Assembly: GCF_019923725.1 (NCBI RefSeq)
Contig: NZ_JAHXRI010000006.1
Coordinates: 873,696 to 937,695, forward strand
Source: Zwartia hollandica
Lineage (GTDB): Bacteria; Pseudomonadota; Gammaproteobacteria; Burkholderiales; Burkholderiaceae_B
DNA length: 64,000 bases
Direction of reading: 5' to 3'
Below the pieces are notes generated by a model. That model saw nothing but the letters and a program-made list of their open reading frames with translations. It ran no database searches and was not told where the DNA came from. Position numbers and translations under genes: made by a program. Numbering within the stretch: position 1 is the stretch's first letter; each line of letters begins with the position of its first letter. This document shows, in pieces, positions 2,866 to 18,154 of the stretch.

Positions 2866-3306
2866 GTGGTTGAGCGCGGATTAAATTTACTCTGGGTTGT
2901 TTTAGGTTTGGCGACGATGGTCAACGCCTGGACGCTAGGCCTGTTCGGTTCGATGGGACCCGACAGCGGTCTGTTCCCGATGATCTGCGGTGTCATCATC
3001 ACAGTATGTGGCTTGATGCTGATGATTAATCGCTCTACGCGTGCGGGCAAGCCCGACTGGCCGGTTGCAGCAGGGCGGCGGCGCATACTGGGCGTACTGG
3101 GGGGGCTGATTGGGTTGACGGTGACGTTACCTTACTTGGGCTTTGCGATTTCAAGTGCACTCACTACTTTTGTATTGCTGCAAACAGTCGAGCGTTCACG
3201 TGTGCTCGAGTCTGTCATTTTGACACTCGTGTCAGTCTCGGTAATCGTGTATGTATTTGGTCATTTACTTGGCTTGTCTTTGCCTCGCGGTCCCTGGGGT
3301 TGGTGA
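2866..3306 (+). CDS. tctB: Tripartite tricarboxylate transporter small membrane subunit TctB
   Basis: Small inner-membrane subunit of a TctABC importer, 146 residues with about four hydrophobic segments, matching the TctB family. The GTG start is supported by GGAGGT at 2855-2860. The first segment is followed by GPDSGLFPMICG, a loop typical of TctB (the P-x-x-P-x-G/F-P region). Its stop overlaps the ATG of the next gene (TGATG at 3304-3308), so TctB and TctA are probably translationally coupled. Substrate specificity lies in the TctC-type receptor, not here. Confidence 0.9.
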   Translation: MVERGLNLLWVVLGLATMVNAWTLGLFGSMGPDSGLFPMICGVIITVCGLMLMINRSTRAGKPDWPVAAGRRRILGVLGGLIGLTVTLPYLGFAISSALTTFVLLQTVERSRVLESVILTLVSVSVIVYVFGHLLGLSLPRGPWGW

Positions 3307-4799
3307 TGGAGGCAATCAATGGCCTAGCGATGGGATTTTCGGTGTTGTTTACACCTGAAAATTTATACTTCTGCTTTCTCGGGAGTCTGGTTGGCACCTT
3401 GGTTGGCGTGTTGCCAGGAATTGGGCCCCTTGCTGCCTTAGCGCTTTTGTTGCCCGTCACTTTTCAGTTAGCCCCAGTCGCAGGATTGGGGATGCTGTGC
3501 GCGATCTTTTATGGTGCCATGTATGGCGGATCGACGACCTCCATCTTGGTCAATATTCCTGGTGAGGCAGCGTCAGTCGTGACCGCTTTAGACGGGCATG
3601 CGATGGCTAGGCAAGGTCGAGCGGGGTCTGCACTTGGGATCGCAGCGATTGGCTCGTTTATCGCTGGCACGATCTCCCTCGTTGCGTTGACTTTCTTTTC
3701 CCCCTTGTTGGCCTCGGTCGCGATTAGTTTCGGCCCGCCTGAAAACTTTGGGTTGATGGTGCTTGGGCTTGTATCGACTCTGTATATGATCGGAGGATCT
3801 ACAGTGAAGGGCGTTCTGATGATTGCCCTTGGATTTCTTGCCGCAACCGTTGGAATGGATATTGTTAACGGCCAGGATCGGTTCACTTTAAACAATGTAA
3901 ATCTAGCTGGCGGAATTGAGATTTTGTCCGTCGTGATCGGACTGTATGGTGTGGCGGAAATTCTCGCGAATTGTGAAACGATCGTAAAGAATCAGTTACT
4001 TGCCGATAAAGTTCGTGGACTCTGGCCCTCTTTTAAAGATTGGAAGGCGTCCTGGAAGCCGATGATGCGCGGCAGTTTCTTGGGATTTTTCCTTGGTCTT
4101 GTTCCGGGTGGTGGACCGGTTACGGCTTCTTTTGTGTCTTACACGCTCGAGAAGCGGTTAGCCAAAAATCCTGAGCGCTTTGGCAAGGGTGCAATCGAAG
4201 GTGTTGCGGGACCTGAGGCAGCGAATAATGCTGCTGTTTCCGGTGGCATGATTCCATTATTTACCTTGGGTATTCCGGGCAATGCCGTCACGGCGTTACT
4301 GTTGGGTGCGCTGGTGATACAAGGTGTACAGCCAGGCCCAACATTCATTACACAGCGACCAGACTTGTTCTGGGGTGTTGTCGCAAGTATGTACGTAGGC
4401 AACGTCTTTTTGCTACTCCTTAACTTACCCCTGATCGGCTTGTGGGTACAGTGTCTTCGGGTGCCATATCGGGTATTGTTTCCGTTGATCCTGCTGTTGG
4501 CCGTTGTCGGAACATACTCCGCTAATAAAAACGTTTTCGATTTGTGGGTCATGCTTGGTTTCGGTGTCGTGGGCTATGTCCTGCGTAAACTGCAGTACGA
4601 GTTTTCACCATTCTTGATCGCGTTTGTGCTGGCCCCAATGCTTGAGCAATCGCTGCGACAGTCCTTAGTGATGTCGCCGCATGGTATGTTGATTTTTGCT
4701 GAAAGGCCGATTGCGGCCTGTTTGATTGGTATAAGTTTGATTTTAGTAGTGCTAGTTTTTCGTCAACGAAAGTTGAACCAACCCGGAGGAGACATATAA
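3306..4799 (+). CDS. tctA: Tripartite tricarboxylate transporter large membrane subunit TctA
   Basis: Large, multi-spanning subunit that carries the solute across the inner membrane, driven by an ion gradient in characterised systems. 497 residues, as expected. The two family signatures are visible: LVGVLPGIGPLAALALLLP near residue 35 and LVPGGGPVTASF near residue 265, the inverted-repeat glycine/proline motifs of TctA. The ATG at 3306 overlaps the tctB stop; in-frame TTG and GTG just upstream are less likely. It is the only TctA in the window, so several of the nine Bug receptors here may have to share it or use permeases elsewhere. Confidence 0.93.
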   Translation: MEAINGLAMGFSVLFTPENLYFCFLGSLVGTLVGVLPGIGPLAALALLLPVTFQLAPVAGLGMLCAIFYGAMYGGSTTSILVNIPGEAASVVTALDGHAMARQGRAGSALGIAAIGSFIAGTISLVALTFFSPLLASVAISFGPPENFGLMVLGLVSTLYMIGGSTVKGVLMIALGFLAATVGMDIVNGQDRFTLNNVNLAGGIEILSVVIGLYGVAEILANCETIVKNQLLADKVRGLWPSFKDWKASWKPMMRGSFLGFFLGLVPGGGPVTASFVSYTLEKRLAKNPERFGKGAIEGVAGPEAANNAAVSGGMIPLFTLGIPGNAVTALLLGALVIQGVQPGPTFITQRPDLFWGVVASMYVGNVFLLLLNLPLIGLWVQCLRVPYRVLFPLILLLAVVGTYSANKNVFDLWVMLGFGVVGYVLRKLQYEFSPFLIAFVLAPMLEQSLRQSLVMSPHGMLIFAERPIAACLIGISLILVVLVFRQRKLNQPGGDI

Positions 4800-5804
4800 A
4801 TGAAACTGATCCACTCTTTTGTTAGTTTGCTGGCTGCAGCCGCCTCGGCAACCGCCATGGCACAAGTATCACCTGAGGTGGCGAAATTAAAGCCAAAAGA
4901 CTTTCCCACTCAGTCAATTGAGTACACCGTGGTTTATCCAGCTGGCGGAGGGATGGACCTCACAGCGCGGCAGCTAGCAAAATATGCTGAACAAGTGAGT
5001 GGCGACAAGATTTTGGTGAACAACCGTACCGGTGGGGCAGGTATGGTTGGGCATACTTACCTCGCAACGCAAGCCAAACCAGACGGCTACACCGTCGGCA
5101 TTCTAGCTAACCTTGTGTGGGGTGACGCTATGTTGCGCGGCAAAGAAAAATGGTCTTTGTCGAATCTAGAGACCATCGCCTATATCAATAGCGATGCGCT
5201 GGCCTGGGTGTCTGCAACAAAGGGACCGTTCGCTGGCAAGTCAGCTAAAGAGATCGTACAGACAGCGAAGGATAAGCCAGGCACCGTGCGCGTTGCGATT
5301 GTGCCGGGCAGTATGTGGGAGTATCTGATTGATCAGATTGAAGCAGCGACCGGTGCAAAGTTTTTGCGTGTGCCCTTTCAGGGTGGTAAACCCGGCATTG
5401 TTGCCTTGTTAGGCGGTAACGTCGATATTGCACAGGGGTTTTACGGCGAGTTCGAGAGCTATTTACAGGCTGATCAGGTCAAACCGATTGCGGTCGCAAG
5501 CAGCAGTCGTCTGGGCAATATGAAGGATGTAGCAACCTTCAACGAGATCTTTGGAACTAAAGACATCGTTTGGAACATCATCCGTTTGGCTGTTGTGCCT
5601 AAAGGTACGCCAGCAGATCGCAAAGCCTATTTGGCAGCCACGATTAACGCGGCGGTCCGCACACCCGCCTTGTCGGCAGAGTTTGCAAAGCTTGGTGCAT
5701 ACGCCGATCCGCTCTTGACCAATCCTGCAACGGCGGCAGCTGAGCTTGATAAGATGGCTCAGGCCGAACGTGCGTTTTATGTCAAAACAGGTCGACTGAA
5801 GTAA
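4800..5804 (+). CDS. tctC: Bug/TctC periplasmic receptor of the TctABC system
   Basis: High-affinity periplasmic solute receptor, 334 residues. A signal peptide ends near AMA/QV. The mature N-terminus carries about 20 extra residues before the usual first strand (IEYTVVYPAGGGMDLTAR); other family marks are LVNNRTGGAGMVGHTYLA, KPDGYTVG and VPFQGGKPGIVALLGG. CGGAGGAGA lies 9-17 bases before the ATG, and the tctA stop is immediately adjacent. Being encoded with tctBA, it is very probably their dedicated receptor. It is more divergent from the classical Bug pattern than the other eight receptors here, in line with a specialised ligand. Confidence 0.9.
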   Translation: MKLIHSFVSLLAAAASATAMAQVSPEVAKLKPKDFPTQSIEYTVVYPAGGGMDLTARQLAKYAEQVSGDKILVNNRTGGAGMVGHTYLATQAKPDGYTVGILANLVWGDAMLRGKEKWSLSNLETIAYINSDALAWVSATKGPFAGKSAKEIVQTAKDKPGTVRVAIVPGSMWEYLIDQIEAATGAKFLRVPFQGGKPGIVALLGGNVDIAQGFYGEFESYLQADQVKPIAVASSSRLGNMKDVATFNEIFGTKDIVWNIIRLAVVPKGTPADRKAYLAATINAAVRTPALSAEFAKLGAYADPLLTNPATAAAELDKMAQAERAFYVKTGRLK

Positions 5805-5811
5805 CCTGAAT

Positions 5812-8244
5812 ATGACGGATGCACTGTTATCCGAACCGCTTGTCCTGGCGGGCAAGCGGTTACGTAATCGCGTCGCACACGCATCGATGACGACTCACAT
5901 GGGGTATCAATCTCAAGTGAGTGATCGACAGATTCAGTATTACGAAAATCGTGCGAAAGGTGGTGCCGCACTTATTGTTACGGAGCCCTTATTGATGGCT
6001 CCCCATCAGACAAATCCCGCACGTATCAGGGTTTGGAATGATGATAATTTGGGTGGCCTCAAACGTTGGGCCGACGCAGTAGAAAAACATGATTGTCGAC
6101 TCCTTGGTCAGATTCAGGATCCAGGAAGAGGTCATCACGATGCAGGCCGTAACTACAGCGCACTTGCGCCTTCAGCGCTCCCCGACGATTTAAGTTGGAC
6201 GATGCCTCATGCACTGACGCTCACCGAGATTAAAAATTTAATCGCTGACTTTGCCTTGTCGTCTGCACGTTTGCAACGCTGCGGCTTTAGTGGTGTTGAA
6301 TTATCTGGTGCACATGGACATTTGTTTAGTCAGTTTATGTCGCCATGGTCGAACCGACGTACCGACGAGTATGGTGGTGACTGGGAGAATCGTACGCGCT
6401 TTGTACGTGAGTTGGTTTCAAGCATACGTGATTTATGCGGGCGTCAATTTATTATCGGTTTGAAGTTGCCAAGTAACGACGGCATTCCGAAAAGTATTGG
6501 GCCGGAGGAGGCTGCAGTTTTGGCTGATCTCTTTACCCGTTCTAAAGAGGTCGACTACGTTTGTTTTGCTCAAGGGGCGCATGCGCGCTCGCTTGAGACG
6601 CACGTCCCTGACAGAAATGGTCCAAACGTTCCATACATTGGACTCATTAGAAAACTTAAGGCTTCGTGTAACGAGGTTGCCGTGATGGCGCTTGGCCGAA
6701 TCACGGATCCGGCCGAAGCTGAGGGCATACTGACTCGAGGTGACGCGGACCTAATAGGAATGGGTCGTACGCTCTTGGCTGATCCAGCTTGGTACAACAA
6801 GGCCATGCAAGGCCGAACGAACGATATTCGCTACTGTATTTCTTGCAACACCTGTTGGGACACGATCATTACCTATGGTGAGCCCCTAGCGTGCGTCAAC
6901 AACCCTCGTGTCGCCGAGAAGAGAGAGGTCGATTGGTGGCCAAAGCCTGCAAAGCGCAAGCATCGCGTTGTCGTGGTGGGCGCTGGCATTGCGGGGATGG
7001 AAGCCGCTTGGGTTGCTGCCGCGCGGGGACATTCAGTCACTTTATTGGGGACGGGATCGGAGGTTGGCGGTAAGGCACGGTTGCGTGCTCAGCTACCAGG
7101 TGGGGAAACGATTACGAGTATTTATGACTATCAAATGGTTTGTGCACAGAGGGCTGGTGTAGATATCCAGCTTGGGAAGCGCGCTGAACTTCAAGACATT
7201 CTGTCATTGAATCCTGACTCTGTGATTCTGGCCACAGGGGGAACGATGCATCGCCCTGAATGGGTACCTGAGGAAATCGCGCGTGAGGGTTGGGTCACTA
7301 ATCTCCCGAGTGCCATGCATGACGTTGTCAAGCTTTCGTCTCGTCAAGCGGGTACTGCTGTGGTCTTTGATATGGATCACACTGAGGGTACCTACGCCGC
7401 GGTAGAACTCTTGGCGCAGCGCTTCGAACGCGTTGTTCTGATGACACCTCGTGCGCTGATCGCACAAGATGAGTCACTCGTTACGAGACAAGGAATTTTG
7501 CGCCGACTGTCGATGGCGCGAGTTGAAATGTTATTGCTCAGTGAACCGGTTTGGTCTGAGCAGTTCGAAGACGGAGTGCTTGAGTATAAGAACGTTTATA
7601 ACGGGGATCTCGGTCGGATCGAGAATATTTCTTTCTTGTCCTATGCGACGCCTCGTGCGGCGAATGTTGATCTCGTCGAGCCACTCAAGGCGTATGACCT
7701 TGAACTTTATCTTGTAGGCGATTGTCGTGTGGCGCGAGGCTTGATGGGCGCGACACGCGATGGTCACAAAGCGGGTGAATCTGTTGGTAGGTACATTAAC
7801 TTTAGAAAGGAGACGCCAATGTCCAGCACGACTGTACGTAATATTGATGTAGATACTGCGCTCAAAGCAATCAAAGCGGCACGAGAGAAAGCGAGCGCAT
7901 TGAAAGTAAATATGTCCATCGCCGTATGTGATGCGGCCGGCCACCTCAAGGCCTTTGTTCGAATGGACGGTGCTTCCTTAATCTCGCTTCAAATCGCGCA
8001 AGATAAAGCGCATACGGCGATATCGGGTGGTATACCAACGCATAAATGGCACGAGTACATCAAAGATGATGCGCCATTGATTCATGGCATCGTCCACACA
8101 CCTAGGTTCATCATTTTTGGTGGTGGCTATCCGATCATGGAGAATGGTCAGATGATTGGCGGCATTGGCTTGAGCGGCGGCCATTATTCTCAGGACATGG
8201 AATGTGCTGAGGCAGCCCTAAAAGCGATCGGGCTGCCGGAGTAA
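5812..8244 (+). CDS. Old-yellow-enzyme/TMADH-type FMN, Fe-S oxidoreductase fused to an HbpS/GlcG domain
   Basis: 810 residues in three parts. Residues 1-340 form an OYE-type FMN barrel (HGHLFSQFMSPWSN at 168-181, GMGRTLLADP near 317). Cysteines 342, 345, 348 and 361 give C-x2-C-x2-C-x12-C, the 4Fe-4S spacing of trimethylamine dehydrogenase rather than of dienoyl-CoA reductase. Residues 383-665 form a nucleotide-binding domain starting with VVVVGAGIAG. Residues 670-810 are a GlcG/HbpS-like domain ending in GGYPIMENGQMIGGIGLSGG. Relatives of the first two parts reduce C=C bonds or oxidise amines, with electrons passing through the cluster. It starts 8 bases after tctC, with little SD. The joint at 7804-7821 still contains AGAAAGGAGA and an in-frame ATG, so the HbpS part may also be made separately. 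A single-base sequence error fusing two genes is the main alternative. Confidence 0.85.
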   Translation: MTDALLSEPLVLAGKRLRNRVAHASMTTHMGYQSQVSDRQIQYYENRAKGGAALIVTEPLLMAPHQTNPARIRVWNDDNLGGLKRWADAVEKHDCRLLGQIQDPGRGHHDAGRNYSALAPSALPDDLSWTMPHALTLTEIKNLIADFALSSARLQRCGFSGVELSGAHGHLFSQFMSPWSNRRTDEYGGDWENRTRFVRELVSSIRDLCGRQFIIGLKLPSNDGIPKSIGPEEAAVLADLFTRSKEVDYVCFAQGAHARSLETHVPDRNGPNVPYIGLIRKLKASCNEVAVMALGRITDPAEAEGILTRGDADLIGMGRTLLADPAWYNKAMQGRTNDIRYCISCNTCWDTIITYGEPLACVNNPRVAEKREVDWWPKPAKRKHRVVVVGAGIAGMEAAWVAAARGHSVTLLGTGSEVGGKARLRAQLPGGETITSIYDYQMVCAQRAGVDIQLGKRAELQDILSLNPDSVILATGGTMHRPEWVPEEIAREGWVTNLPSAMHDVVKLSSRQAGTAVVFDMDHTEGTYAAVELLAQRFERVVLMTPRALIAQDESLVTRQGILRRLSMARVEMLLLSEPVWSEQFEDGVLEYKNVYNGDLGRIENISFLSYATPRAANVDLVEPLKAYDLELYLVGDCRVARGLMGATRDGHKAGESVGRYINFRKETPMSSTTVRNIDVDTALKAIKAAREKASALKVNMSIAVCDAAGHLKAFVRMDGASLISLQIAQDKAHTAISGGIPTHKWHEYIKDDAPLIHGIVHTPRFIIFGGGYPIMENGQMIGGIGLSGGHYSQDMECAEAALKAIGLPE
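7809..7821 (+). promoter_or_regulatory. Internal Shine-Dalgarno and ATG at the fusion joint
   Basis: GGAG at 7809-7812 stands six bases before an in-frame ATG (7819-7821, codon 670 of the 810-residue protein), inside a longer AGAAAGGAGA. It is as good as the ribosome binding sites of true gene starts in this window, and better than that of the host gene. It lies exactly where the HbpS/GlcG-like domain begins, so a free 141-residue HbpS-like protein could be translated from the same message. Confidence 0.6.
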
Positions 8245-8270: not shown

Positions 8271-8954
8271 TTAAGACACTTTATCGAGTAGCTCGACCTC
8301 GTAGCGATGTGTGAGCTCACATTTGCGCACGGGGTCGATTAGGCGCATTTCAAATAGAGGTGATGGACGGATGGCGCCTCGGGTCCCGACCGTCCCACAA
8401 CTCATTGCTGTACCTTTGGGGAGCGTCCCCTTGTTTGTATAGCGAGAAATAAGATCCAGGGGGGGTAGCAGGGCAGATAACGGTCCAGATTGATACAGCA
8501 CCTGTATGCCGTTTTCATATACGTATGATTCGATGATTAACTGATCCCAGTGTGCTGCGACATCTGAAAATAGCCAAGCCTGTCGGCCAACGGGTTTGCT
8601 ACAAACTTGCTTAGAAAGTGCCACACTTACTGTCTCCAGGCCGCGATCAGTATGGTCGGAGGTGAGCGAAATCAATAATTGATCGTTGTGCATAAATACA
8701 AACACTTCGACCTCGCCCGAGCCCTCGTTGCCAACCATTTGCACAATCGAATCTTGGGTAAGCAGCTGATTCGATACGCGATAAAACAAAGGCACTGAGC
8801 TCGGACGTGGAACGCCAATGGCTGCAAGCTCTTCAATGTGGTGTTCAATCGCAGCATGATCACGGCCAGCCCAACCCGCGATAATCATTTGTTCAATGTT
8901 TGTCTGTATTTTGGTTACTGTATTGTTGTTTATCAGATCAAAAAGTAGATTCAT
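8271..8954 (-). CDS. DUF2848 family protein
   Basis: 227 residues, cytoplasmic, no signal peptide or membrane segment. I recognise the DUF2848 pattern: SVPLFYRVS near residue 54, a central SDHTDRGLE, and a C-terminal LPKGTAMSCGTVGTRG. The DHTDR and GTAxxCGT elements recall fumarylacetoacetate-hydrolase-like proteins, but that relation is my inference. It begins 7 bases after the DctM stop and is the last gene of the LysR/DUF1445/TRAP unit, so it probably processes the compound imported by that transporter, perhaps as a hydrolase or decarboxylase of a keto or hydroxy acid. No biochemical role is established that I know of. Confidence 0.75.
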   Translation of the reverse strand: MNLLFDLINNNTVTKIQTNIEQMIIAGWAGRDHAAIEHHIEELAAIGVPRPSSVPLFYRVSNQLLTQDSIVQMVGNEGSGEVEVFVFMHNDQLLISLTSDHTDRGLETVSVALSKQVCSKPVGRQAWLFSDVAAHWDQLIIESYVYENGIQVLYQSGPLSALLPPLDLISRYTNKGTLPKGTAMSCGTVGTRGAIRPSPLFEMRLIDPVRKCELTHRYEVELLDKVS

Positions 8955-8961
8955 AGGGTTC

Positions 8962-10242
8962 TCAAAAAAATCTAGTCATCCAAAGTGCAATGTCGGGAAA
9001 TACTGCTAAAAGCGCTAACAAGGCAAGCATTGCAACAACAAAAGGCAGCGATCCCACGATCACCGGAGTCATCGAACCGCTTGATCGCAGGCTTTGCACA
9101 ACGAACAGATTCAGCCCGACAGGTGGAGTGATCAAGGCTGCCTCGACGAGTACGATAATAACGATCCCAAGCCAGATCGGATCGTAGCCCAAAGCAATCA
9201 TGACGGGCGCCACAATCGGAATCGTTGTGATCATCATCGATAACGTTTCCATGAAGCAACCTAGCACTAAATAGAAGACAATAAGAATCACTAGCATCCA
9301 TTGTGCAGAAACGCCGAGCCCCGATATTGCATTTGTCAGTGCAGTGGTTAGGCCTGTCGCAGACATCACGAAGTTTAAGAAGCTTGCGCCGATGACGATA
9401 AGCATGATCATGGCCGAGGCGCGCATCGTGTTTTCGATGGACTCACGCATCATCGCAATACTCAAGCGTCGGTAGGCGGCAGCCAACGCCATTGCACCAA
9501 AAACACCTAGGGCCGCTGCCTCCGTCGGAGTTGCTACTCCGGCGTAAATCGACCCAACAACCAGTAAAAAGATCCCCATAGGAGGTATCAGGTGGGTCAA
9601 GGCCTTAAGCCTCTGAGCCCAAGTTGCATGAATCCGTTGACCACCCCAGTGCGGTTTCGCGGCACAAGCAAAAATGATCGTCGCCATAAACATTAGCGCC
9701 AAGAGCAGCCCAGGAATAATTCCTGCTAGGTAGAGCTTTGGCACTGAAGAATTCGTCAGCACGCCGTAGATGACCAAATTGATTGAAGGCGGGATCAAAA
9801 TCCCAAGGGTTCCGCCGGCCGCAATACTGCCCAAAAAGAGTGGCTCGTTATAGCCATATTTTTTTATCTGTGGCAGCGCTACTGTCCCTACCGTGGCAGC
9901 CGTGGCGACACTGGACCCCGAGGTGGCCGCGAACAGAGCAGAGGCACCAATATTTGCGTGCATCAGACCGCCCGGCAGCCAAGATAACCAAAGACTGAGA
10001 GCAGAGTACATGCGCTCTGCAAAGCCTGCTCGCAAAAGAATCTCTCCGAGCATAATGAACAACGGAATCGCAACGAGTAGGAATTCGGTGTTCGTGGTCC
10101 AAGCCAGTTCACCCATCGCCCGAGACAGAGGTAGCATGGAATATATCTGATCCAAAACAAGGCCGAGTACTCCTAGTGCCGCACCAACAGGGATGCTCAG
10201 GCCGATCAGGATCAATAAGAGTGTCAGTGCAGTTGAGATCAT
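8962..10242 (-). CDS. dctM: TRAP transporter large permease (DctM)
   Basis: Inner-membrane transport subunit of a TRAP importer, 426 residues with about 11-12 hydrophobic helices, the normal DctM length. Recognisable stretches are FATSGSSVATAATVG (residues about 108-122), GGTLGILIPPSINLVIYG, and YAGVATPTEAAALG. The start ATG overlaps the DctQ stop (ATGA), which indicates translational coupling. It works with the DctQ and DctP genes just upstream; TRAP systems use a sodium gradient to import carboxylates, often sialic, dicarboxylic, keto or aromatic acids. Ligand unknown. Confidence 0.92.
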   Translation of the reverse strand: MISTALTLLLILIGLSIPVGAALGVLGLVLDQIYSMLPLSRAMGELAWTTNTEFLLVAIPLFIMLGEILLRAGFAERMYSALSLWLSWLPGGLMHANIGASALFAATSGSSVATAATVGTVALPQIKKYGYNEPLFLGSIAAGGTLGILIPPSINLVIYGVLTNSSVPKLYLAGIIPGLLLALMFMATIIFACAAKPHWGGQRIHATWAQRLKALTHLIPPMGIFLLVVGSIYAGVATPTEAAALGVFGAMALAAAYRRLSIAMMRESIENTMRASAMIMLIVIGASFLNFVMSATGLTTALTNAISGLGVSAQWMLVILIVFYLVLGCFMETLSMMITTIPIVAPVMIALGYDPIWLGIVIIVLVEAALITPPVGLNLFVVQSLRSSGSMTPVIVGSLPFVVAMLALLALLAVFPDIALWMTRFF

Positions 10243-10847
10243 GATCCGCGCTCCTCTTGTACACGACGTTGTCCCGCTTGCGCTTCTTCAAGCGCTTCTT
10301 CTTTGGAAAGTCGCGCACCGGCCAAGCTGTTGACGCTTTGATAATCGCCGGTGATTAAGGCACTACTGGCCCGAGTCAGCATCAAGGCCAACACAATCAC
10401 CATCCAAATTAGGCCAACAAACCACAGCCCTTGCGGTATCCAAAGAGGTGTTGCGAGCGGCGTATTGGCAAACGAATTTTGAATCCAGGACGTGGCAAGC
10501 ACTTCATAGGCGTAGCGAGTAAGCATGGTTAGAAAGACAGCCAGCGCGACTAAGGAAAGCCAGTCGAGCATTGCGGCTACGCGCACCGAGAAGTGCTGAT
10601 AAAGAATATCGACTCGAACGTTCGCGCGCTCGAGAACGACTAGCGCGAGTGACCAGGTTGTACTGATGGCGAAGGCGTATCCAGATAACTCGTCCGCTCC
10701 GCCAACTGATATCGCAAACAACTTTCTGACAATTACATCAAAACAAACAAGGCCGGCACTCAATAGCGTGAGGATGCCACCACCCCAGACTCCCCAGCGA
10801 GAGATCTTAGTTGCCCATGGCAGCATACTGTGCGATTGAGTGCCCAT
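10239..10847 (-). CDS. dctQ: TRAP transporter small permease (DctQ)
   Basis: Small membrane subunit of the TRAP system, 202 residues, four hydrophobic segments, slightly longer than usual through a charged C-terminal tail (residues about 165-202, rich in Glu, Ala and Arg). The element ALVVLERANVRVDILYQHFS between helices 2 and 3 is the characteristic DctQ loop (R-x-x-H/N-V-R-V-D). It lies 11 bases after dctP and overlaps dctM by four bases. Confidence 0.88.
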   Translation of the reverse strand: MGTQSHSMLPWATKISRWGVWGGGILTLLSAGLVCFDVIVRKLFAISVGGADELSGYAFAISTTWSLALVVLERANVRVDILYQHFSVRVAAMLDWLSLVALAVFLTMLTRYAYEVLATSWIQNSFANTPLATPLWIPQGLWFVGLIWMVIVLALMLTRASSALITGDYQSVNSLAGARLSKEEALEEAQAGQRRVQEERGS

Positions 10848-10858
10848 ACGTTTGCCTA

Positions 10859-11905
10859 TTACTTCTTTGCAGTAACGTTAAGTTTTTTACCGATCGTGGT
10901 ATTGAAATCTGCCACACATTGATCTGAGCAGCGTGCCGCCCACTTAGGCAAAATAACGTCGCCGAGTAGCTTGTTGAGCAATGCCTTGTCTGCCTCTGAC
11001 GGTTTGACTAGCGTCATTTTCCCTTTTACGTCAAAAGGACATCCAGGCGAACCCGTATTGCAGGCATAGCCTTGCTCTGTTTGCTCGTTCGCAGCATTCC
11101 ACATGGTTGTCATCAACGTATTGATGTTGGTCTGCAAGAAGGATTGAACTTTAGGATCGATTTTGTCCCAAGCTTTTTGGTTTACTGCGTGAATTTGCTG
11201 ATTCCAGTTGATCGGAAGCGCCAAAAGATGCGTGGATACTTCGTACCACTTTGCGGAGTAGCCAGAGAGGGATCCAGTGATCGCGCAATTTACGACCTTG
11301 TTCTGCAATGCGGGGACAACTTCACCAAACGCGAGGGTGACGCTTGTGCCGCCGAGAGCTTGAATAAACTCTGCCTGAGTCCGGCTGCTTGTACGTACTT
11401 TTTTACCCTTTAGATCGGTAAGATCTTTTATTGGTGCGTTACAAAAAATCACCTGAGCAGGGTACGGTGACAAACCAAGAATCTTTACGTTGTTATTCCC
11501 ACCGTAGAGTTTTCCGTAAATGGGGGCAAAAAGATCGGTGATTTCACGCGCCGTCTTTACATCGGGAGCTAAGCCAGGAAGATCGATTGCTTCATTGATG
11601 GGGTTGTCGCTGGCGAAATAGGAAAGGGTCGCTGTCCCAAACTCAATCACACCCTGACCAATGAGTCGCATCAGTTCAGGACCTTTAAGTCCCATTTGGT
11701 TAAAGCCTTGGATTTCAGCAGTGACCTGTCCTTTCGATGCTTCGGGGATTGTTTTTGTCCAAAAAGGCTGCTCAAAGTCTTTATAGGCTGTGAGGTTGTT
11801 CAGACCCCCAACGACTTTAAGTTGTGTACGAGGCAGGTCTTGCGCAGCGACGTTTGTCGCCATGAGTGTTGCAGCACTAATTACTGCGAGCATCAGCATT
11901 TTCAT
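10859..11905 (-). CDS. dctP: TRAP transporter solute-binding protein (DctP)
   Basis: Periplasmic receptor, 348 residues, signal peptide ending near VAAQ/DL. The ATG is supported by AGGAGATG eight bases upstream. The ligand-contacting region reads LKGKKVRTSSRTQAEFIQAL, where the first Arg matches the carboxylate-binding arginine conserved in most DctP proteins. Further marks are ALQNKVVNCAITG and WYEVSTHLL. Unusual are four cysteines near the C-terminus, in CNTGSPGC and CSDQC, which could form two disulfides and mark a subfamily. First gene of the dctPQM-DUF2848 group, preceded by an inverted repeat at 11937-11968. Binds an organic acid of unknown identity. Confidence 0.9.
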   Translation of the reverse strand: MKMLMLAVISAATLMATNVAAQDLPRTQLKVVGGLNNLTAYKDFEQPFWTKTIPEASKGQVTAEIQGFNQMGLKGPELMRLIGQGVIEFGTATLSYFASDNPINEAIDLPGLAPDVKTAREITDLFAPIYGKLYGGNNNVKILGLSPYPAQVIFCNAPIKDLTDLKGKKVRTSSRTQAEFIQALGGTSVTLAFGEVVPALQNKVVNCAITGSLSGYSAKWYEVSTHLLALPINWNQQIHAVNQKAWDKIDPKVQSFLQTNINTLMTTMWNAANEQTEQGYACNTGSPGCPFDVKGKMTLVKPSEADKALLNKLLGDVILPKWAARCSDQCVADFNTTIGKKLNVTAKK

Positions 11906-11936
11906 GAAAGCATCTCCTAATTAACGGGAAGAAAAT

Positions 11937-11968
11937 CTGTATCGGTTACCCGCTTAGCGTCGATACAG
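11937..11968. promoter_or_regulatory. Inverted repeat upstream of dctP
   Basis: Perfect 8-base arms CTGTATCG (11937-11944) and CGATACAG (11961-11968), separated by 16 bases that hold a smaller CGC-TAA-GCG dyad. It lies between the DUF1445 stop and dctP. On the minus strand the hairpin is followed by ATTTTC, too weak for a typical terminator. It could be an operator, an attenuator or an mRNA processing signal separating the levels of the two parts of the operon. Confidence 0.4.
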
Positions 11969-11992
11969 GGAACAGCCTAAAAATAGTTATCG

Positions 11993-12769
11993 TTAAATAA
12001 TGGATAGTTGAGAGTTGAGCTTGTCCGTCACTAGCATGTACCCCGGGGCATGTGTGATGCAAAAATCAGGCTTTGAGGCCATCAAGACGGCTTGTGGGGT
12101 CACACCGCAAGCCCAAAAAACCGGGATTTCGTCGTGCGCAATAGGTACGGGTTCACCAAAGTCTGGTTTTGATAAATCGGCAATGCCGATTTGTGCAGGG
12201 TCACCGAGGTGCACGGGCGCGCCGTGAACGGACGGGAATTTTGATGTGATTTGAATCGCTCGGATCGCGTCGGCTGCTTTAAAAGGCCTCATGGACACGA
12301 CCATCGGACCATGAAATGGGCCTGCAGGCGCTGTCGCGATGTTGCTCTTGTACATTGGGACATTGGAACCACATGAAATGTGTCGAACATCAATACCGTC
12401 AGCGACGAGTGCCTCTTCAAAGGAAAATGAGCAACCAAGCGCGAAGCTCACTAAATCATTTCTCCAAAAACGCGAGATATTGGTCACCTCTTCTACCAAC
12501 TCGCCGTTGCGCCAAACCCGATACCGCGGAATATCTGTGCGTACATCTAAATTCTCCCCAAAGCCTGGGAAGAAGGTGCTACCGACATCGGCAACAGACA
12601 GAATTGGGCAAGGTTTAGGGTTGCGTTGGCAAAATAATTGAAAGTCGCTGGCTAAGGCTTTCGGTAGGATGACAAGGTTGGCCTGAACAAACCCCGGGGC
12701 TGCCCCGGCCGTTGGCTGCTGAAATGTGCCGTTTCGGATATTTAGTCGCACTTGCTGCGATGCCAGCAT
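11993..12769 (-). CDS. DUF1445/YcsI family putative hydro-lyase (D-glutamate cyclase-like)
   Basis: 258 residues with the chosen start: GGGAG precedes the ATG at 12769, and residues before it in the longer frame do not match the family. Characteristic stretches are [30 protein letters not shown], broken here as [10 protein letters not shown] then [12 protein letters not shown], followed by [23 protein letters not shown] and [14 protein letters not shown] near the end. Relatives include the D-glutamate cyclase domain that converts D-glutamate to 5-oxo-D-proline, and members often sit beside YcsF/LamB and biotin-dependent oxoprolinase genes, which are absent here. It lies between a LysR gene and a TRAP transporter, so a role on the imported acid is likely; exact reaction unknown. 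Confidence 0.8.
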
Positions 12770-12824
12770 ACAAAATCTCCCAAAGATTGCTTTTTTTCTA
12801 TTCAATGCCAAGGGAAGTGTACTG

Positions 12825-12841
12825 TCCAATTATCATTTGGA
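12825..12841. promoter_or_regulatory. 5-7-5 dyad upstream of the DUF1445-TRAP unit
   Basis: TCCAA (12825-12829) and TTGGA (12837-12841) form a perfect dyad around seven bases, the geometry of LysR-type binding sites. It lies about 55 bases before the DUF1445 start and just downstream of a LysR gene read in the same direction, so it is a candidate site for that regulator. Confidence 0.45.
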
Positions 12842-12848
12842 ATCAGTA

Positions 12849-12869
12849 TCGATAAATTTTATTTATCAA
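12849..12869. promoter_or_regulatory. AT-rich inverted repeat overlapping the lysR stop
   Basis: GATAAA (12851-12856), TTTTA, TTTATC (12862-12867) is a perfect 6-5-6 inverted repeat, extendable by two bases per side with one mismatch. It overlaps the stop codon of the LysR gene and lies about 80 bases before the DUF1445 start. Candidate second operator or promoter element for the DUF1445-dctPQM-DUF2848 unit. Confidence 0.4.
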
Positions 12870-13753
12870 TGATATTGCCCGGATACTTTTTCGGCGAGCT
12901 TGGCAAGTGCGCGCGCAATATGTTCATCGGGACCCTTCGCCCAAGATGCGGTGAAAGCGAGCTCTGGGAGCTCCGATGCTGTCACGTTAAGAAGGCAAAG
13001 TCGCCCTTCGCTAAGTTCTGCTTTTAAAAAAGTGGGGGTGATGACGGCGACCCCAATCGCGTCTAGGGTCATGCGCACCACAACGGACAGCGATGCGCTG
13101 CCGTACATGCGAGGGGCATGGATTCCTGATGCTGTGATGAGGCTACGGACAAAGTGGTGTGGGGCACTGGCTGCGGAATAGGTAATGATTGGGTACTCGC
13201 ATACTTGCTCGAGCGACACCTTGTTGTTGAGGCCGAGTTTTGGACTTGCGATCCACGCGAGTGGGTACTTGCAGATCGGGATGTTTTCGAGTTGTGGTGA
13301 TAGGAGGGGCCCCAGTAGAAACGCGAGATTGAGTCGATGCGACAGCACTTGCTCTCGCAATACAGGCGTTGTTTCGACTTCGAGTTCGACGCTCACAGAA
13401 GGATAGCGCGCATGAACGGATTCCAAGAACTGCGGGAGCCACGTTTGTACTATTGTTTCAGACACGCCAATTCTGACCTGACCAGTAATCGTATTCGGGC
13501 TTTCTGCAGCATTCAACATTTCTTGCTTGAGATCCAGCATTCGCTTAGCGTGCTCCAGGAGTTCAAGACCTTTGGTTGTCAGTTTGACACCGCGGGCGTT
13601 GCGCTCCAAGAGCTTTACGCCGAGAGAGGACTCTAGCGATGCAATCCGCTGTGAAACGGCTGGTTGCGTGGTGTTCAATTTGTGTGCTGCAGCACGAAAA
13701 CTAGTCAGGGTAGCGACCCAAACGAAGGTTTCCAGATTGCGGATCTCGATCAT
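12866..13753 (-). CDS. LysR-type transcriptional regulator
   Basis: DNA-binding activator/repressor, 295 residues, the standard length. The winged helix-turn-helix occupies residues about 1-60 (TSFRAAAHKLNTTQPAVSQRIASLE, given here as FRAAAHKLNTTQPAVSQRI) and the effector-binding domain residues about 90-290 (QVRIGVSETIVQTWLPQFL onward). It reads away from a Bug gene 85 bases off and runs toward the DUF1445/TRAP genes, so it may control both. Two dyads at 12825-12869 are candidate sites. It is the only obvious DNA-binding regulator encoded in this window; the effector is probably an organic acid. Confidence 0.92.
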   Translation of the reverse strand: MIEIRNLETFVWVATLTSFRAAAHKLNTTQPAVSQRIASLESSLGVKLLERNARGVKLTTKGLELLEHAKRMLDLKQEMLNAAESPNTITGQVRIGVSETIVQTWLPQFLESVHARYPSVSVELEVETTPVLREQVLSHRLNLAFLLGPLLSPQLENIPICKYPLAWIASPKLGLNNKVSLEQVCEYPIITYSAASAPHHFVRSLITASGIHAPRMYGSASLSVVVRMTLDAIGVAVITPTFLKAELSEGRLCLLNVTASELPELAFTASWAKGPDEHIARALAKLAEKVSGQYH

Positions 13754-16978: not shown

Positions 16979-18154
16979 ATGAAGACAAAATTATTTTCAC
17001 CGCTACAGATTCGTGATCTCACGCTGAAGAATCGTATCGCGCTCTCGCCGATGCTGACCTATTGTGCGGATCATGGTCACTTAACTGATTGGCATCTTGC
17101 GCATTACGCAAAGTATGCAGTGGGTGGTGTTGGTCTCGTGTTCGTCGAATCAACAAAAGTGGATCCCCGAGGTTGCACAACACCAAACGATCTTGGCCTG
17201 TGGAAAGACGACTTTATTGCGCCGATGGCGCGCATTACTTCGTTTGTCAAGGCGCAGGGCTCAGCAATTGGTATTCAGCTTGGCCACTCGGGCCGCAAGG
17301 CAAGAAACTCTTTGCCGTGGGAAGGGCGCCTTCCGCTTGGTCCTGAGCAAAAAGGCGTCGATCATGACGAGGAGTGGGAGTTAATTGCTCCAAGCGCTGT
17401 TGCGGCTGGCTCTAAGGCGAGTGTTCCACGTGAGATGAGCCTTCAAGACATTCAAGACCAGATTGAGATGTGGGGTAAGGCCGCTGTGCGTGCTGACGCG
17501 GCGGGCTTTGACGTATTGGAAATCCATGGTGCACATGGATACTTATTGCATCAGTTTTTGTCTGCGGCAGCGAATCAGCGCAAAGATCAATATGGCGGCT
17601 CACTCCAAAATCGTATGCGTTTCGCAATTGAAGTTGCAGAACAAGTGCGCTCTGTGTGGCCGACTGGTAAACCATTGTTCTATCGTGCCTCCGCGGTAGA
17701 CGAGGCGGGCCTGACGGTTGAGGATACCGTCGCGCTTTGCCGCGCGCTAAAAATTGCCGGTGTGGACGTCATTGATTGCTCAACGGGTGGTATGTCTGAG
17801 CACTCTATCGCTAGCGGCGTCACTCGTCCTGGTTATGGATATCAAGTGCCTTATGCCGAGCAGGTTCGACGTGATGCGGAGCTACTCACCATGGCGGTGG
17901 GCTTAATCATTCATGCGGACCAAGCGGAATCCATTCTACAAAAAGGACAGGCAGATTTAGTTGCCATTGGCCGTGAGCTCTTACACAACCCGAACTGGGT
18001 GCTTGATGCAGCAGATAAGCTCGATGAAGAAAATATCTTCTCGAACATCGCACCGAATTATGGCTACTGGCTCGAGAAAAGATCAAGCACAGGCTTTAAA
18101 GGCAAGACATCAACGCGTTTAAATGGTATCGATGTACCGCCTCGTGCTAACTGA
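16979..18154 (+). CDS. NADH:flavin oxidoreductase, Old Yellow Enzyme family (YqjM/XenA-like)
   Basis: FMN enzyme that reduces activated C=C bonds with NAD(P)H. 391 residues, a single barrel with no Fe-S or second domain, unlike the large enzyme at 5812. The thermophilic-like (YqjM) features are seen: LKNRIALSPMLTYCADHG near residue 20, IQLGHSGRKA near residue 98, EIHGAHGYLLHQFLS near residue 182, NQRKDQYGG and GRELLHNPNW. Alone on its strand between two minus-strand Bug genes; only 3 bases separate its stop from the convergent Bug stop. Physiological substrate unknown; enoates or unsaturated ketones are usual. Confidence 0.92.
   Translation: MKTKLFSPLQIRDLTLKNRIALSPMLTYCADHGHLTDWHLAHYAKYAVGGVGLVFVESTKVDPRGCTTPNDLGLWKDDFIAPMARITSFVKAQGSAIGIQLGHSGRKARNSLPWEGRLPLGPEQKGVDHDEEWELIAPSAVAAGSKASVPREMSLQDIQDQIEMWGKAAVRADAAGFDVLEIHGAHGYLLHQFLSAAANQRKDQYGGSLQNRMRFAIEVAEQVRSVWPTGKPLFYRASAVDEAGLTVEDTVALCRALKIAGVDVIDCSTGGMSEHSIASGVTRPGYGYQVPYAEQVRRDAELLTMAVGLIIHADQAESILQKGQADLVAIGRELLHNPNWVLDAADKLDEENIFSNIAPNYGYWLEKRSSTGFKGKTSTRLNGIDVPPRAN

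Follow-up and report, generated by a model that had tools for sequence, protein, structure and literature searches.

A single 810-codon frame, free of internal stops, lies at positions 5812-8244 on the forward strand of the 64,000-nucleotide stretch of Zwartia hollandica DNA analysed here (the window), and in it a flavoenzyme of the trimethylamine dehydrogenase (TMADH)/2,4-dienoyl-CoA reductase type (residues ~1-657) is followed by a linker of 12 codons and then by an HbpS-like domain that is complete (residues 670-810). We consider it probable, at roughly 70%, that this is a dual-product gene which arose when a stop codon was lost, and from which both an 810-amino acid fusion and a free 141-amino acid HbpS protein would be made, with both products under selection. 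A dual-product gene is indicated by two features of the joint, an invariant stretch, TTTAGAAAGGAGA, and a linker whose codons 658-663 vary only synonymously. Gene fusions serve to infer protein partnerships, but the event of fusion can rarely be observed. In this case an unfused pair in a related genus, a matching stop, a conserved linker and a retained start are all available, which makes the passage from two genes to a single gene with two products directly testable.

Domain layout, enzyme type and gene run

The features of the fusion and of its gene run are all on the forward strand. The flavoenzyme part (codons 1-657; 5812-7782) was delimited using Pfam, solved relatives and the point at which unfused relatives end. 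It contains an Oxidored_FMN barrel (PF00724; residues 8-336; 5833-6819) with a Pfam E value of 1e-57, above the cut-off, then four cysteines, C342, C345, C348 and C361 (6835-6894), forming a putative 4Fe-4S site on the grounds of conservation and alignment with 2,4-dienoyl-CoA reductase and histamine dehydrogenase, and finally a nucleotide-binding part (residues 385-491; 6964-7284), where Pyr_redox_2 (31 bits versus a cut-off of 26.1) and NAD_binding_8 both scored above their cut-offs. The linker, VGRYINFRKETP, occupies codons 658-669 (7783-7818), as defined by alignment and by the full-length structural model, which is confident across the enzyme and drops to pLDDT <50 at residues 662-675, as for a flexible tether. 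The HbpS/GlcG-like domain, possibly also a separate 141-amino acid protein, follows at 7819-8244, with a PF03928 match at residues 679-803 (E 8e-38; 129.8 bits versus a cut-off of 25). When this domain was modelled alone it gave a pLDDT of 90.6 and a fold matching NahX, OrfY, EfgA, PduOC and HbpS, while the full-length model was also low at residues 731-771, where the HbpS part has few covering sequences. A preliminary description of this DNA had proposed an uninterrupted reductase-HbpS frame, and this is confirmed by the 810 codons and by all three Pfam domains exceeding their cut-offs. It had also drawn the reductase part over residues 1-665; the part ends at ~657 and residues 658-669 belong to the linker.

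The best solved relatives of the enzyme part are 1ps9, 6qkg (NCR), 6de6, 3k30 and 1djq. By sequence, the FMN barrel, four-cysteine motif and C-terminal nucleotide-binding domain mark it as a multi-domain OYE, with these elements in the same order as in 2,4-dienoyl-CoA reductase, TMADH and histamine dehydrogenase, although unlike the members of that family the fusion carries an extra C-terminal HbpS domain. The active site of 2,4-dienoyl-CoA reductase we take to be formed by Tyr166, in the motif GSEGYL, and His252. His257 of the fusion aligns with the latter, whereas the GSEGYL Tyr, the active-site residue of 2,4-dienoyl-CoA reductase proper, is absent and replaced by His170 (6319-6321), as it is in 41 of the 44 aligned sequences. 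As the cysteines and His257 match but the Tyr has become His170, we regard the enzyme as a multi-domain OYE member and not as a dienoyl-CoA reductase proper, and His170 may mark a distinct subfamily. Scores for two NCBIfam equivalogs fell below their cut-offs, at 438.6 of 793.15 bits for mycofact_OYE_2 and 266.5 of 825 bits for BaiCD. Within an unrefined alignment Cys345 (codon 6844-6846) is replaced by Gly in 10/44 and by Ala in 3/44 relatives, and a normal Fe-S cluster may accordingly be missing from some members of the family. The window also holds a second, short OYE-type gene (~16991-18010; G000:C22:890686-891705), with 30% identity to the enzyme of the fusion over residues 6-331.

The fusion is the last gene of a run that opens with an arylmalonate-decarboxylase/Asp-Glu-racemase-type (Amdase-type) gene (2110-2835) and continues with TctB (2866-3306), TctA (3300-4799) and a TctC-type substrate-binding protein (4800-5804), all assigned using Pfam. 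Its own start, within 5805-5814, is ATG in the window and GTG in five fused relatives, and it stands 7 nt past the TctC stop with almost no Shine-Dalgarno (SD) pairing, which suggests translational coupling. We compared the flanks of 16 relatives from other genomes (L050, L086-L098, L104 and L105) and detected a TctC/Bug-type receptor gene within ~1 kb of the enzyme in 13, with none near L050, L091 or L105, making an imported carboxylate a fair guess for the substrate. Downstream of the fusion, positions 8271-13753 hold a block encoding DUF2848, DctM, DctQ, DctP, a D-Glu cyclase-type protein and LysR. In the window and in G212 (L101) this block separates the fusion from the next Bug gene, whereas in G127 (L102) and G216 (L103) it had no match in that interval.

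Occurrence of the fusion and signals at its joint

The preliminary description had suggested seeking the same fusion in related genomes and had held that relatives always carrying two genes would speak against it. The complete fusion was recovered from six of the 32 genomes of the genus that were searched, the window's own included, with open frames of 814-815 codons, and among these 32 genomes no unfused copy of the fusion gene was found (matches listed down to E ~4e-28). The six fused coding sequences are of equal length, contain one stop each and share 78-94% nucleotide identity. At fourfold-degenerate sites the window and L045 differ by 58.6%, and these two differ from the other four by 61-70%; this divergence is close to saturation and, judged by it, the fusion is old rather than recent. 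Several genomes of the genus, including the window's own, also carry paralogues that are ~54-56% identical and are without the HbpS domain. Six partial, ~50-75% identical matches at contig ends (two in G212 and one each in G203, G200, G211 and G213) were considered as unfused copies and rejected, with 74-100% identity to the paralogue groups versus 48-61% to the fusion, and with no HbpS match in any of the six.

Beyond the genus, a family sample of 200 genomes (E 1e-100 or better) yielded two fused genes and one separate pair, an order sample of 399 genomes (E 1e-120) yielded no further fusion, and a phylum sample of 378 genomes (E 1e-80) yielded the fusion in the window's own genome only. These were samples and not full sets, with the first 2-5 candidates per genome scored, and at their strict thresholds no fusion was found outside the genus. 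Among plasmid records, identity was 39.8% or less in the best 25 of the 2673 that matched. Two of these, H1 (matching to residue 739) and H2 (to 707), reached furthest past the linker among the matches listed and were rejected as fusions: both are ordinary oxidoreductase genes at their ends, and the remainder of each match falls outside the annotated gene as an alignment tail. HbpS-like domains as such are common, with PF03928 present in 22 of 56 genomes of the class, and among the 35 places listed from these genomes the window's is the only one in an open frame of >311 codons. An HbpS gene was absent from the wide flanks of 13 enzyme relatives from other genera, and G183 alone has one.

At the joint, the preliminary description had pointed to an SD-type sequence followed by ATG. 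Both are present, as AGAAAGGAGA at 7804-7813 and, at 7819-7821, the ATG of Met670, which is ATG in the six fusions and in L008, the unfused pair of G183. The six-fusion alignment places this SD sequence within a 13-base stretch (7801-7813) that is the longest run identical in all six, out of 2430 coding positions. The chance that codons 664-667 and 669 would all be free of synonymous change was 2.6e-4 when compared with the same amino acids elsewhere in the gene, while a whole-gene test was weaker, with a run of six codons free of synonymous change in 739 of 20,000 shuffles; these statistics are rough, as the six sequences are related. Codon 668, which lies between the SD and the ATG, varies non-synonymously (T/M/I).

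Predicted pairing with the 16S tail before Met670 was -8.7 kcal/mol in all six fusions, compared with -6.6 ahead of the unfused HbpS gene in L008 and -0.9 to -1.4 at the enzyme's own start. The tail used for these energies has A as its last base, against T in the genome; the anti-SD sequence is present at two places in the window's own genome. Ranked by weakest SD energy, Met670 comes first of the 29 start-type codons common to the six fusions. By the mean over the six it is beaten by Met776 (-9.8) and Leu787 (TTG; -8.9), although these vary widely among the six, from -6.5 to -13.4 and from -4.8 to -11.4, respectively, and in the window alone its energy is only fourth of 53 start-type codons. 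We also examined 466 internal in-frame ATGs of the window, each at least 60 codons into one of 55 mechanical open frames of at least 180 codons; 19 reach -8.7 kcal/mol, but a properly spaced AGGAG core is unique to Met670. A conserved SD and start codon are therefore present inside the frame, as in a dual-product gene, and on these comparisons the internal start looks to be under selection. That the second domain could start by itself, as had been supposed, is supported as probable.

It is rather unlikely that the 810-amino acid protein is the sole product and that the ribosome-binding site is simply left over from a once separate HbpS gene. The frame is indeed open in all six genomes, the linker sequence is conserved and FRKE could be conserved as protein. 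However, the SD stretch is invariant at the synonymous positions of its F, R, K, E and P codons, which is what the value of 2.6e-4 measures, and a relic would be expected to drift where fourfold sites elsewhere differ by 59-70% between deep branches.

The linker carries the corresponding evidence for the long product. Across the six fusions codons 658-663 vary at five base positions and all of these changes, including AGG versus CGT, are synonymous. The resulting identity, VGRYIN, was kept in 0/4000 neutral simulations at the full rate, in none at half rate and in a fraction of 0.00025 at quarter rate (4000 runs per rate, with tree branches set by hand from the fourfold distances), while the absence of a stop in these codons is by itself uninformative (0.39 at full rate). 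From this, the 810-amino acid product also looks to be under selection. The same simulations weigh against two proteins in practice, where internal initiation gives a working HbpS and the fusion is a tolerated by-product of the lost stop. We judge this improbable, despite an internal SD that is far stronger than the one at the upstream start, since residues 658-663 would then hardly have stayed identical in six genomes.

Origin of the joint

G183 belongs to another genus of the same family, and at its locus (L008/L079) TctB, TctA, TctC, a flavoenzyme and HbpS are in identical order to those of the window, with no match to the Amdase-type gene in the neighbourhood comparison. Its flavoenzyme and HbpS are separate genes, 27 nt apart and in the same frame, with the spacing seen in the fusions. 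Counted back from the HbpS ATG, the TGA of L008 coincides with codon 660 of the fusions (7789-7791 in the window), which encodes Arg in 6/6, as AGG in the window and L045 and as CGT in the other four. TGA is one base away from both CGA and AGA, which are Arg codons. A maximum-likelihood tree of 47 rows united L008 and the fusions in one clade (support 98/98), with the tree program marking L008 as a long branch of unsure placement.

We also checked where the enzyme ends in 49 rows (E 1e-100 or better, reaching residue 630), which comprised eight fused rows, including two partial second copies, and 41 unfused rows, including one second copy. Each of the 40 distinct unfused frames ends at the corresponding position, a little past the last helix, whether or not an HbpS gene follows. 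As all unfused relatives stop there, separate genes are likely the older state. Taken together with the G183 pair and its TGA at 660, the common frame and length in six genomes are better fitted by a stop-to-sense substitution before the six split, and by these alignments the fusion most likely arose through stop-codon loss. The separate pair is known in one of nine genomes of G183's genus. With only this one unfused pair known, the direction, fusion over fission, rests on the relatives without HbpS, and fission in G183 keeps some probability.

The preliminary description had instead suggested that a recent one-base change could have created the fusion, citing stops in another frame just before the joint. 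Both of these stops are present, TAA at 7797-7799 and TAG at 7803-7805, but a recent frame change is contradicted by six genomes with the same frame and by a G183 pair that is likewise in frame. The stops were also rejected as traces of the first gene's old end, since in G183 the unfused enzyme gene has its stop at codon 660, in the frame of the fusion. The TAG overlaps the conserved SD stretch with its first bases. That two separate genes are joined here by an error of sequencing or assembly, or by a frameshift of recent date, is highly improbable, for although these stops are close by and five of the fused records are metagenome assemblies, six assemblies that are 78-94% identical agree in length and frame and the unfused pair shows the identical frame and distance.

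Working model and comparison with known systems

In the dual-product reading, comparison with G183 supplies the first state, a flavoenzyme gene of a tripartite-tricarboxylate-transporter run with an HbpS-like gene directly 3' in the same frame. Re-initiation depends on the distance between genes (PMC10666635), and with little of it across a gap of 27 nt, as that source suggests, the HbpS gene of the unfused pair would probably need its own ribosome-binding site. Judging from the alignment, the TGA would then have become an Arg codon in the ancestor of the fused genomes, leaving the 12-residue linker to join the parts, while the HbpS ribosome-binding site and ATG would have been kept inside the coding sequence and both products made. 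The start of the 141-amino acid product would depend on AGAAAGGAG in the SD region, and that of the 810-amino acid product would not. Reductase and HbpS were previously suggested to work together, and most likely they do form a pair, either fused or in a complex.

Tetramers and octamers are the assemblies formed by HbpS-like domains, with EfgA reported as a tetramer (PMC8153426), HbpS as an octamer and isolated PduOC with haem as octamers (PMC4923194), and fused and free chains of the present protein could co-assemble in a similar way. Free HbpS chains would fill places in the oligomer and fused chains would tether the enzyme. An enzyme on every chain may crowd the oligomer, and free chains would then help. 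More tentatively, the old HbpS start may have been kept as a stoichiometry device, giving a mixed ring with fewer flavoenzymes than HbpS chains, an idea to which we give somewhat less than even odds. Within such a complex the enzyme would act on an unsaturated carboxylate that the adjacent TctABC transporter imports, reducing its C=C bond, and the HbpS part would bind or sense a small compound from that pathway, a carbonyl or a carboxylate. The role of the HbpS/GlcG-like family in catabolic gene clusters has been called elusive (PMC8153426), and here such a domain gains a physical enzyme partner. If the mixed ring is true, a small tethered metabolic complex would be made from one gene and HbpS-like domains could serve as enzyme scaffolds.

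Among the solved relatives of the HbpS part, NahX, EfgA, PduOC, OrfY and HbpS, the nearest is NahX (9jth; TM 0.92; 44-45% identity), and EfgA (6bws) shares 42% identity. The NahX and EfgA chains are single-domain, with 140 and 164 residues, respectively, whereas the HbpS part here is fused to an enzyme. One alignment, A1, which mixed short HbpS rows with long ones, was left unused, as it gave the HbpS row of L008 31% identity instead of ~67%. The EfgA pocket residues R42, K57, S114 and D121, proposed for small molecules (PMC8153426), are kept as R717, K732, S788 and D795 (R48, K63, S119 and D126 in domain numbering) and are invariant in 13/13 aligned sequences. A figure legend in the same paper describes this site as largely conserved across the family, so the match is not specific.

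PduO of Salmonella likewise combines an enzyme, an adenosyltransferase, with a C-terminal HbpS-like domain (PMC4923194). Its enzyme differs from the flavoenzyme described here, and its haem-coordinating His18 (PMC4923194) is absent, with Leu15 of the HbpS part in its place when the alignment is extrapolated backwards by two columns. With no matching His, PduO-type haem binding is not supported, and the earlier suggestion of a haem-binding HbpS partner appears weakly based, with the EfgA pocket residues conserved instead.

Both kinds of arrangement are known, nested starts on the one hand and enzyme-HbpS fusions such as PduO on the other, while their combination was not found in the literature surveyed, where titles and abstract openings held no description of such an enzyme-HbpS fusion. 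In-frame internal starts that yield a C-terminal piece are reported for Cas11b (PMC11899642) and SpaO-short (PMC13059759), and in these, as proposed for the fusion, one gene gives a large protein together with a piece of its C-terminus. What differs here is that the nested start seems once to have opened a gene of its own, and that the unfused pair persists in G183.
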